Source of the DNA: Polyangiaceae bacterium
GTDB taxonomy: Bacteria > Myxococcota_A > Polyangia > Polyangiales > Polyangiaceae
Direction: 5' to 3'
Length of the DNA: 40,703 nucleotides
Assembly: GCA_020846005.1 (NCBI GenBank)
Contig: JADLEQ010000046.1
Location: 1-40,703, forward strand
This document shows positions 9,953-13,691 of this stretch, piece by piece. The notes under the pieces were generated by a model. That model saw only the letters and a program-made list of their open reading frames with translations, ran no database searches and was not told the origin of the DNA. A program made the translations under genes and the position numbers. The first letter of the stretch is position 1; every line of letters starts with the position of its first letter.

Positions 9953-10810
9953 GTGGTGCCGAGCGACGGCCGACCTCCTCCGCGTGCGCGCGGCGATCTC
10001 GCGCACGCCGTGCTGCTGCGGATCGCCTACGACGGCGCGCGCTTCGCCGGGTTCGCGCGCCAGCCCACCGCGCGCACGATCGCCGGCGAGCTCGACGGCG
10101 CGATCGCAGAGCTCGATCCGCGCGCGCGCCCGGTCATCGGGCTGAGCCGCACCGACGCGGGTGTCCACGCGCGCGCGCAGCTCGTCGTCTTCCAGACGAA
10201 CCGTGAGCTGCCCCCGCGCGCCTGGGCGCACGAGATCGGCGTCCGCCTGCCGAGGGAGATCGCGCTGCTCGCCGTGCGCCGCGTGCCCGCGACCTACGAC
10301 CCACGCGGCGCCGTCCGGAGCAAGACGTACCGGTACACCGTGCTCGAGAGCGTGACGCGGGATCCCTTCCTCGAGGGGCGCGCGTGGCGAGTCCCAGACC
10401 GGTTGAACCACCCGGCGCTCTCGCGCGAAGTTGGCGCGCTCCTCGGGCGCCACGACTTCGCGGCCTTCCGCACACGCGACGACGAGCGCCCCGAGACGGT
10501 GCGGACGATCTTACGCGCCGAGGTGCGAACCAACCCCTGCGACGCGCGGCTCGTGGAGATCCTGGTCACGGGGGACGGCTTCCTCCATCGCATGGTGCGC
10601 ATCATCACCGGGACGCTGGTCGACGTCGCGCGCGGGCGCCTGAAGGAGGGCGCGATCGCCGCCGGGCTCGCGAGCCGGGACCGCGACGACCTCGGGATGA
10701 CGGCGCCGCCCGATGGCCTGGTGCTCGACTCCGTCGACGTCGACATCCCACCCGGCGAAGAGTGGCCAGACCACTTTCGCTCGATTGACCGCTCCGACAC
10801 CGTCACGTAG
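9953..10810 (+). CDS. truA: tRNA pseudouridine(38-40) synthase
   Basis: Isomerises uridines 38-40 of the tRNA anticodon arm. The catalytic aspartate is D68 in SRTDAGVHA. Other TruA motifs are LLRIAYDGARFAGFARQP, KTYRYTV, FLHRMVRIITGTLVDV and the C-terminal DLGMTAPPDGLVL (usually TAPAxGL). I used the GTG at 9953. It gives about 15 extra residues compared with a typical TruA, so translation may instead begin further in. The 285-residue length is otherwise normal. The last codons overlap a TTGACC/TAGCTT pair that I did not accept as a promoter. Confidence 0.95.
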   Translation: MVPSDGRPPPRARGDLAHAVLLRIAYDGARFAGFARQPTARTIAGELDGAIAELDPRARPVIGLSRTDAGVHARAQLVVFQTNRELPPRAWAHEIGVRLPREIALLAVRRVPATYDPRGAVRSKTYRYTVLESVTRDPFLEGRAWRVPDRLNHPALSREVGALLGRHDFAAFRTRDDERPETVRTILRAEVRTNPCDARLVEILVTGDGFLHRMVRIITGTLVDVARGRLKEGAIAAGLASRDRDDLGMTAPPDGLVLDSVDVDIPPGEEWPDHFRSIDRSDTVT

Positions 10811-10827
10811 CTTGAACGAGCTTCGGC

Positions 10828-10843
10828 TGGCACGAGCGGTGCT
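10828..10843 (+). promoter_or_regulatory. Sigma-54 (-24/-12) promoter candidate for the sphingolipid pair
   Basis: The sequence TGGCACG-AGCG-GTGCT matches the RpoN consensus TGGCACG-N4-TTGCW at every defined position but one, and the base before it (C) fits the preferred Y. The invariant GG (10829-10830) and GC (10841-10842) are exactly ten bases apart. Predicted transcription starts near 10854, about 65 bases before the ATG at 10921. Known RpoN promoters need an AAA+ enhancer-binding protein, and none is encoded nearby. Confidence 0.7.
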
Positions 10844-10920
10844 TGGTGGCGGTAGACTGCCCGCGAGCCCGCGCCCGCTCGGGCAGCTCGCGCCGACGGC
10901 GGATGGATTCGAGGCACCCC

Positions 10921-12528
10921 ATGACCATGACGATCAGACAGCGTGTCGCACACCAGGGCAAGAAGGTGCTGTCCCGCCCCGCCCTGCTGCGGCTGATGAC
11001 GGACGACCGCGTCATGCGCGCCGCGGAGGGCGTGATGGGGGCGCGTGTCCGCGTGAAGGCCGCGTGGAAGCTGCTGGTCAACGGCCACGAGCTCCCGAAC
11101 GTCGATCCCGCGCTCGACGACTGGCACGAGGACGTCCCCGCGTCCGCGTCGCGCGCGCGCAACGGAGCCCCGTCGGCGCGCGCGACGAACGGCGCGACGC
11201 ACGCCGGCCCCACGGTGACGGGCGGGGCGCCGCCGTCGCCGTCGTCGCCGCCGCGTGCCCCGGCGACCACCGACGCGGACATGACGGCGTCGCTCAAGGA
11301 GCGCACGTCGCTCGCGTCGATCGGCGGTCGCGACGTGTTCGAGAAGGCGTTCTCCTTCCTCGCCGCGGACAACGCCCGCAAGATGGGCGTCTATCCGTTC
11401 TTCCGCCCGCTCGACCTGGCGGACGGCCCCGAGGCCGTGATCGACGGCCGGCGGGTCGTCATGTTCGGCTCCAACAACTACCTCGGGCTGACCACGCACC
11501 CCAAGGTGCGCGAGGCGGCCAAGGCCGCGATCGATCGCTTCGGCACCAGCATGACGGGCTCGCGCCTCGTCAACGGCTCGATGAAGCTGCACGAGGAGTT
11601 CGAGGAGCGCCTCGCGAGCTGGTTCGGCAAGGAGAGCGCGCTCGTCTTCACGACGGGGTACCAGGTGAACCTCGCGGTGTGCTCCGCGCTGCTCAGCAAC
11701 AAGAAGAGCGTCGCGATCGTCGACCGCAACGTCCACGCCTCGCTCTATGACGGCGTGCGTCTCGGGCAGGCGGCGGGCGCGCGACTCGTCCGCTACAAGC
11801 ACTCGGACGCCGAGTCGCTGGACCGCGCGCTGCAGAAGCTCGAGCCGGGCGAGGGCGCCCTGGTCATCACCGACGGCGTCTTCAGCGCCGAGGGCGAGAT
11901 CGCGAAGCTCGATCGGATCGTCCCGGTCGTGAAGAAGCACGGCGCCCGGCTGTTCGTCGACGACGCGCACGCCCTCGGCGTGATCGGCCCGGGCGGCCGC
12001 GGCACCGCCGACCACTTCGGGCTCTCGAGCGAGGTCGACCTCATGGGCGGCACGTTCTCCAAGTCGCTCGCGAGCATCGGCGGGTGGCTGGTCGGGGATC
12101 GCAAGGTGCTCGACTACATCCGGCACTTCGCGCCGAGCTTCATGTTCGCCGCCGCGGCCGCCCCGCCGTGCATCGCCGCGGCGATGGCCGCGTTCGACGT
12201 GATGCGGGAGGAGCCCTGGAGGATCGACAAGCTCCGGGAGAACTTCACCTACATGCGCGACGAGCTGCGCCGGATGGGCTTCGAGCTCGGCCACACGGAG
12301 ACGGCGGTGATCCCCATCTACGTGCGCGAGGATCTGCGCACGCTCATGATGTGGCGGGACTTGCTGGACGAGCACGGCATCTACGTGAACCCGTTCATCT
12401 CGCCCGGTGTCCCGCCGAAGAGCGCGATGCTCCGCACGAGCTATATGGCGACCCACGAGCGGCACCACCTGGACCGGGCGCTCGAGGGCTTCCAGGCCGT
12501 GGGCAAGAAGTACGGCGTGATTTCCTGA
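10921..12528 (+). CDS. Alpha-oxoamine synthase, probable serine palmitoyltransferase, with N-terminal extension
   Basis: PLP enzyme that condenses an amino acid with an acyl-CoA. FGSNNYLGLTTHP and TGSRLVNGS are most like bacterial serine palmitoyltransferases, which make 3-ketosphinganine. The active-site set is complete: H272 (DRNVHASLYDG), D347 and H350 (DDAHALG), and the Schiff-base K381 (GGTFSKSLASIGGW). It is 535 residues long against about 400 for the usual enzyme. The excess is an N-terminal basic/helical segment (1-70) and a Ser/Ala/Pro-rich linker (about 71-125). I chose the ATG at 10921 because GAGG is six bases upstream. The next gene is a GNAT protein 26 bp downstream. BioF- or Kbl-like activity is the alternative, made less likely by the SNNYLGL form and the neighbour. 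Confidence 0.82.
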   Translation: MTMTIRQRVAHQGKKVLSRPALLRLMTDDRVMRAAEGVMGARVRVKAAWKLLVNGHELPNVDPALDDWHEDVPASASRARNGAPSARATNGATHAGPTVTGGAPPSPSSPPRAPATTDADMTASLKERTSLASIGGRDVFEKAFSFLAADNARKMGVYPFFRPLDLADGPEAVIDGRRVVMFGSNNYLGLTTHPKVREAAKAAIDRFGTSMTGSRLVNGSMKLHEEFEERLASWFGKESALVFTTGYQVNLAVCSALLSNKKSVAIVDRNVHASLYDGVRLGQAAGARLVRYKHSDAESLDRALQKLEPGEGALVITDGVFSAEGEIAKLDRIVPVVKKHGARLFVDDAHALGVIGPGGRGTADHFGLSSEVDLMGGTFSKSLASIGGWLVGDRKVLDYIRHFAPSFMFAAAAAPPCIAAAMAAFDVMREEPWRIDKLRENFTYMRDELRRMGFELGHTETAVIPIYVREDLRTLMMWRDLLDEHGIYVNPFISPGVPPKSAMLRTSYMATHERHHLDRALEGFQAVGKKYGVIS

Positions 12529-12554
12529 GCGCTCCCCGCTAGCGTACCGTCCGC

Positions 12555-13691
12555 ATGGTGGCACGAGGACTCGAGATCGCCGAGACGCCGATCGGCGGCA
12601 AGCTGCGGGAGTTCCTCGACGCGGTCGACGTCGTGTACCGCGAGGACCCGAGGTGGATCCGGCCGCTCGATCTCGACGTGGCGGGCCGGCTCACGCCGAA
12701 GAACCCGTTCTTCGAGCACGGGGAGGCGACGACGTTCGTAGCGCGCCGCGCGGGCCGCGCCGTCGGGCGCTGCAGCGCGCAGATCGATCGCTCGCACCTC
12801 GAGCGCTACCGGGACGACACCGGCTTCTTCGGCTTCCTCGACACCGTCGACGATCCCGAGGTCGCCGAGGCGCTGCTCGAGGCCGCGCAGGAGTGGCTGC
12901 GGCGGCGGGGGCTGCGGCGCGTGCGCGGGCCGCTCTCGCTGAACATCAACGAGGAGGTCGGCTGCCTGGTGGACGGCTTCGACACCCCGCCGATGCTGAT
13001 GATGCCGCACCACCGCCCGTACCAGGGCGGGCTCATCGAGCGCGCGGGGTTCGCCAAGGTGAAGGATCTCTACGCCTGGCGCTACGAGGTGGGCGACGTG
13101 AACCGGCGGGCCCAGCGCGGCTACGACGAAATCGCCGCGCTGCCCGAGGTGCGCGTGCGCGCCATCGACCCGAAGCGCATGGCGGACGACGTGTCGACGG
13201 TGATGAGCGTGTTCAACGACGCGTGGAGCGACAACTGGGGCTTCGTCCCGCTCAGCCGCTCCGAGCTGGCGAAGATGGCCAAGGATCTCGAGCTCCTGCT
13301 GATCCCCGAGCTCGGCTGCATCGCGGAGATCGAGGGCGAGCCCGCCGCGGTGGCGCTGGCGCTCCCCAACGTCAACGAGATGATCGGCGACCTGAACGGC
13401 AAGCTCCTGCCCTTCGGCGTGGCGAAGCTGCTCTGGCGCCTCAAGGTGCGCGGTCCGTCGTCGGCGCGCCTGCTGATCCTCGGGATCCGCAAGCGCTGGC
13501 GTCACGTGCGCAAGTACGCGGCGCTCAGCGCGTACCTCTATGTCCGGATGAACGAGGCCGCCGCGCGCGCTGGCATCCGCTGGGGCGAGCTCTCGTGGAC
13601 GCTCGAGGACAACGCCCCGGTCAACGTCGGCATCAAGATGATGGGCGGCACCATCTACAAGACGTACCGGATCTACGAGCGCGCGCTCTGA
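12555..13691 (+). CDS. GNAT-fold acyltransferase, candidate bacterial ceramide synthase
   Basis: A 378-residue GNAT-superfamily protein. Its core runs from VVYREDPRWIRPLDLD to a C-terminal region with WTLEDNAPVNVGIKMMGGTIYKTYRIYER. The central part (GPLSLNINEEVGCLVDGFDTPP, MMMPHH-type PHHRPY, then GFAKVKDLYAW) recalls the GNAT-like proteins beside serine palmitoyltransferase genes in Gram-negative bacteria. One of those, from Caulobacter, acts as ceramide synthase. With the adjacent synthase, N-acylation of the sphingoid base is the natural inference. I cannot align the sequences here, so the family is probable and the substrate inferred. The short gap implies one operon under the sigma-54 site. 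No ceramide-reductase-like gene is in the window. Confidence 0.68.
   Translation: MVARGLEIAETPIGGKLREFLDAVDVVYREDPRWIRPLDLDVAGRLTPKNPFFEHGEATTFVARRAGRAVGRCSAQIDRSHLERYRDDTGFFGFLDTVDDPEVAEALLEAAQEWLRRRGLRRVRGPLSLNINEEVGCLVDGFDTPPMLMMPHHRPYQGGLIERAGFAKVKDLYAWRYEVGDVNRRAQRGYDEIAALPEVRVRAIDPKRMADDVSTVMSVFNDAWSDNWGFVPLSRSELAKMAKDLELLLIPELGCIAEIEGEPAAVALALPNVNEMIGDLNGKLLPFGVAKLLWRLKVRGPSSARLLILGIRKRWRHVRKYAALSAYLYVRMNEAAARAGIRWGELSWTLEDNAPVNVGIKMMGGTIYKTYRIYERAL

Follow-up and report, generated by a model that had tools for sequence, protein, structure and literature searches.

Ceramide loci of Caulobacter and Sphingomonas comprise the genes spt, cerR and bCerS (CC_1162, CC_1164 and CC_1154; PMC11324152, PMC11087976). 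For sigma-54 promoters, the consensus used here for comparison, TGGCACG-N4-TTGCW, is that of PMC7910581, in which a further promoter is inferred beside the sigma-54 element of MXAN1603. In a comparative study, sigma-54 is tied to genes for molecules of the bacterial exterior, among them lipids (Francke et al. 2011, PMC3162934). Little was found in the literature on how bacteria control sphingolipid synthesis, and a search for sigma-54 together with sphingolipids returned only unrelated papers.

Here we analyzed a gene pair in a 40,703-nucleotide stretch of DNA from a Polyangiaceae bacterium (subsequently designated the window). At odds only marginally short of even, we propose that this spt-bCerS pair has a sigma-70-type promoter as its basic one and that a sigma-54 promoter, possible but confined to this lineage, follows behind. 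The two genes would form an operon providing the ceramide backbone. The sigma-70-type promoter, which extends over the last bases of truA and recurs across the truA-linked clade, would be the ancestral one, while the sigma-54-type promoter would add activator-dependent transcription under some condition. The features concerned are compiled in the table.

Table. Features of the spt-bCerS locus and of the NtrC-type regulator discussed in the text. Positions refer to the window unless a locus is given.
Feature	Position	Strand	Remarks
truA, tRNA pseudouridine synthase, upstream neighbour	9953..10810	+	PF01416, E 3e-32; end carries the sigma-70-type promoter
-35 element TTGACC	10785..10790	+	TTGAC at most 250 bp upstream in 47/57 SPT genes
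-10 element TAGCTT, 17-bp spacer	10808..10813	+	predicted transcription start near 10820
Sigma-54-type -24/-12 site TGGCACGAGCGGTGCT	10828..10843	+	11/12 consensus bases, 15.2 bits; predicted start near 10854 if active
spt, serine palmitoyltransferase-like enzyme	10927..12528	+	NCBIfam SPT is best match; N-terminal extension; alternative start 10921
bCerS-family acyltransferase, predicted tandem GNAT fold	12555..13691	+	39% identity to Sphingomonas-locus gene; fold match E 1e-13
NtrC-type response regulator, GAFTDA	L053:7809-9167	-	found at the equivalent position in 22 other genomes
Ortholog of the NtrC-type regulator in the window's genome	L279:7766-9127 (C21)	-	75% identical, away from spt

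The first gene encodes a protein that is assigned by sequence to the alpha-oxoamine synthase fold, with its closest kin among serine palmitoyltransferases (SPTs) and a predicted SPT activity. The best superfamily model was NCBIfam serine palmitoyltransferase, but since the score of 455.6 bits is below the curated cut-off of 640, which is tuned to other phyla, the safe name is 'SPT-like'. The best matches among solved structures are likewise SPTs (E 4e-104), the top ones of which we take to be bacterial enzymes, led by the Sphingobacterium type. This match begins only near residue 140. The preceding N-terminal extension of ~140 residues (10927-11340) carries a conserved DDRVM, is common to the family and is absent from solved SPTs. 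Alignment of orthologs favours the second ATG (10927) as start over the first (10921).

The second gene starts 26 bp downstream of the SPT gene (12528 to 12555), as stated in an earlier note on this DNA, and had no match above cut-off in Pfam or NCBIfam. Using a solved Sphingomonas SPT as bait, 80 Sphingomonas-type spt loci were fetched, 71 of them full-length. A homolog of the second gene is present in 49 of these 71 loci, with up to 39% identity over the full length (E 9e-75), and in the best cases it is located 6-7 kb downstream of Sphingomonas spt. This location agrees with that of the Caulobacter ceramide synthase gene CC_1154 relative to spt CC_1162 (PMC11324152); the bCerS assignment thus compares sequences with Sphingomonas-type loci and likens CC_1154 by locus position. 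In addition, the protein was modelled with a mean pLDDT of 80.5, and tandem GNATs are matched by this structure model (E 1e-13). In several relatives the second gene is followed by a dehydrogenase gene homologous to the gene just upstream of Sphingomonas spt, the position that cerR occupies in Caulobacter. Taking the SPT matches, the Sphingomonas-locus homolog and the modelled tandem GNAT fold together, the pair most likely consists of spt and a gene for a bCerS-family acyltransferase. Profiles, homologs and structure model hence bear out the earlier note, which had recognized a sphingolipid gene pair. One point of caution about this assignment is that, across the family, bCerS-type GNAT genes occur in 101 of 108 genomes and SPT genes in 61 of 108, so the acyltransferase is not tied to the window-type SPT. 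A second role or another partner of this near-universal GNAT may be considered.

Upstream of spt and on the same strand, a -24/-12 motif reading TGGCACG-AGCG-GTGCT is present at 10828-10843 (TGGCACGAGCGGTGCT). Its GG (10829-10830) and GC (10841-10842) have the exact GG-N10-GC spacing, and 11 of 12 bases match the consensus, the sole departure being GTGC for TTGC. Motif and spacing had been reported correctly before; the distance from the motif end to the first in-frame ATG is 77 bases, where 78 bp had been given. Scored with weights that we set ourselves around the published consensus in place of a trained matrix, the site reaches 15.2 bits, the top score among 57 SPT loci. Nla28-type half sites were looked for near the site and none was found. 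Of note, a structured leader RNA was ruled out by a folding z-score of 0.26, and a palindrome upstream of the site (10662-10679) is not convincing as an activator-binding repeat, palindromes of this type having a background frequency of ~1 per 250 bp here.

Directly 5' of the motif, separated from it by ~14-15 bases and in the same orientation as spt, we detected the box TTGAC-N17-TAGCTT at 10785-10813, which had been missed in the earlier note. The -10 element overlaps the truA stop codon TAG, and the sigma-54 site falls into the predicted leader of this promoter, which is otherwise without conservation. TTGAC is found within 250 bp upstream of 47 of the 57 SPT genes as compared to 52 of 401 neighbouring genes, and the strict form TTGAC-N17-TAGC[TG]T upstream of 13/57 and 0/401 genes, respectively; both contrasts are very large, though somewhat inflated because the control set holds operon-internal genes. 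The gene order truA-spt is shared by 25/57 loci. In truA-linked loci the TTGAC-N17-TAGCTT/TAGCGT box is strict in about half and present in a looser form in most, and in the congener it is degenerate. Throughout the genome, TTGAC-N17-19-TAGNNT occurs just 25 times versus 8 times in the control. The box was not reported by a strict scan for TATAAT-based sigma-70 promoters. Our reading is that of a sigma-70-type promoter under conservation.

A different picture emerged for the sigma-54 site when we compared SPT upstream regions within the family (57, counting the window). Four SPT loci of another family, obtained by an order-level search, had starts that were not reliably set and were left out of the scoring. 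Conservation upstream of SPT orthologs, which the earlier note had named as support for its promoter, largely fails: a strong site is absent from all other truA-linked orthologs (0/24), the single congener with an SPT 74-77% identical to that of the window among them, and is retrieved at four of the 56 other family loci, all belonging to one separate clade. A strong site is thus present at five of the 57 loci and missing from 52. The four genomes are G018 and G057 of genus g19 and G038 and G065 of genus g38, with site scores of 11.8-14.1 as compared to 15.2 for the window site; no further SPT locus exceeds 8.2. Their -24/-12-like sites lie 51-62 bp before spt (L044 and L046 in g19, L116 and L122 in g38; for example GGGCACGTGCCTTGCT). 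Within g19 the site is kept and the flanks have diverged, and the neighbours of spt differ between g19 and g38. Apart from the window site, they are the strongest candidates for an spt promoter under sigma-54. On the SPT tree, the four genomes form a clade of their own, apart from the window, so that the sigma-54-type site has two origins. Among the other genes of these neighbourhoods, 5/401 score as high as the strong sites (Fisher p = 0.004 against 5/57), a weak contrast given the relatedness of the genomes and the fact that the motif was first noticed in the window.

Since nearly all relatives lack the motif and share the sigma-70-type promoter, special sigma-54 control can at most be a local extra, and a conserved RpoN switch for sphingolipids is not supported by the family comparison. 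The previous suggestion that the pair is controlled from an RpoN-dependent promoter is not supported for the same reason, as the strong motif is absent at 52/57 SPT loci and a sigma-70-type promoter is conserved instead; nor does the analysis lend support to the role in development or starvation considered there. In its simplest form, this suggestion implies that the -24/-12 site is the only promoter and that spt is silent without an activator. Site quality and position would agree with this, and the genome does contain one rpoN (one Sigma54_DBD match) and about 24 genes for NtrC-type activators (Sigma54_activat: 24 strong matches, 5 weak ones). However, the conserved sigma-70-type promoter lies immediately in front of the site and points the same way, and a scan for terminator-like sites between its box and spt found none, making sole control by RpoN highly improbable.

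Conversely, the sigma-70-type promoter could work alone and the -24/-12 match in its non-conserved leader be a coincidence in a GC-rich genome, a reading to which we assign a considerable chance, albeit one below even. It agrees with the conservation of TTGAC-N17-TAGCTT and the absence of the -24/-12 site from the clade. Likewise, TGGCACG-N5-TGCW has 30 matches in the 5.7 Mb genome, modestly above the 21 matches of the reversed control, and in the genome-wide pattern search the identical 16-mer was met within a coding region on C91. Yet sites of like quality are clearly over-represented in front of genes: by our count ~12 of the 30 matches lie before or at predicted gene starts, where ~1.7 are expected from length, and three 11/12 sites, including that of the window, fall into 70 kb of upstream sequence as opposed to two in 1.11 Mb of coding strand. 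The latter rates refer to a 0.63 Mb genome sample and the genome-wide ones to pattern searches and 20-kb samples, and since gene starts were set by a simple codon-bias ORF caller, the rates upstream of genes are approximate. The window site exceeds chance for its position, and the enrichment makes an upstream site of such quality likelier real than not, conservation aside. Furthermore, likely genuine sites turn over, a single upstream site having been found in exactly shared form in the congener, which renders missing conservation weak evidence. The shared site lies upstream of an orthologous gene (G000 C85:130517, L140; G033 C159:30431, L270) and is itself a likely genuine RpoN target.

We regard the chances that the window sigma-54 site is active in the host organism as about equal either way. 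The sigma-54 part of the proposed two-promoter arrangement is favoured by the quality of the site, by the rpoN and activator genes of the genome and by the independent sites of the g19 and g38 clade; it is disfavoured by the absence of the site from all 24 truA-linked relatives, by the want of a convincing activator-binding repeat upstream and by the position in a non-conserved leader. For this arrangement, the gene families, the conserved box and the quality and non-conservation of the sigma-54 site were established computationally, whereas transcription from both sites, co-transcription of the two genes and action of an NtrC-type activator at the second site are inferred.

In a third clade of 23 genomes, spt is divergent from a conserved gene for an NtrC-type response regulator of 453 aa. 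Its ortholog in the window's genome comprises receiver, sigma-54 activation and Fis-type domains. The loop of this regulator reads GAFTDA instead of GAFTGA, and according to Francke et al. (PMC3162934), single changes in GAFTGA, above all of F and T, lower or abolish activity. The spt upstream regions of the 23 genomes contain no strong -24/-12 site. Considering this and the GAFTDA loop, direct activation of spt by the regulator within this clade is possible but unsupported, and its adjacency is a lead rather than proof of spt control. At one locus of the clade (L053:11094-14907), spt is followed by ompH/skp-, lpxD-, fabZ- and lpxA-like genes, i.e. a lipid A cluster, and related genes are present in several clade members. 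It appears unlikely, though worth stating, that sphingolipid synthesis in the family came under sigma-54/NtrC-type control at least two independent times, in the lineage of the window and in g19 plus g38, and that the NtrC-type regulator which 23 other genomes retain divergently next to spt, and whose ortholog lies elsewhere in the window's genome, belongs to the same link.

Should the sigma-54 site work, a class of membrane lipids would be tied to activator-controlled transcription, and mutagenesis would have a defined target. If it does not, the locus illustrates that the leader downstream of an ordinary, conserved promoter can contain a near-perfect -24/-12 match and that a conservation test is needed before control is inferred.

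Compared with described sigma-54 systems, the window resembles the Nla28 system of Myxococcus xanthus in possessing a TGGCACG-N4-TTGC(T/A)-type element, and in both cases rpoN and numerous activators are encoded in the genome (PMC7910581). It differs in that no Nla28-type half site is near and the site is not conserved. The link of sigma-54 to exterior molecules drawn by Francke et al. 2011 (PMC3162934) does not mention sphingolipid genes in the portions available, and the sigma-54 link of the window is not conserved across the family. With the ceramide loci of Caulobacter and Sphingomonas, the window shares an SPT of alpha-oxoamine synthase fold and a full-length homologous N-acyltransferase, and a cerR-like gene comes next in several of its relatives. 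In contrast to those loci, neither cerR nor a gene for an acyl carrier protein adjoins the pair in the window, spt and the acyltransferase gene are directly adjacent, and the SPT carries an N-terminal extension and is nearer to the Sphingobacterium than to the Sphingomonas enzyme.
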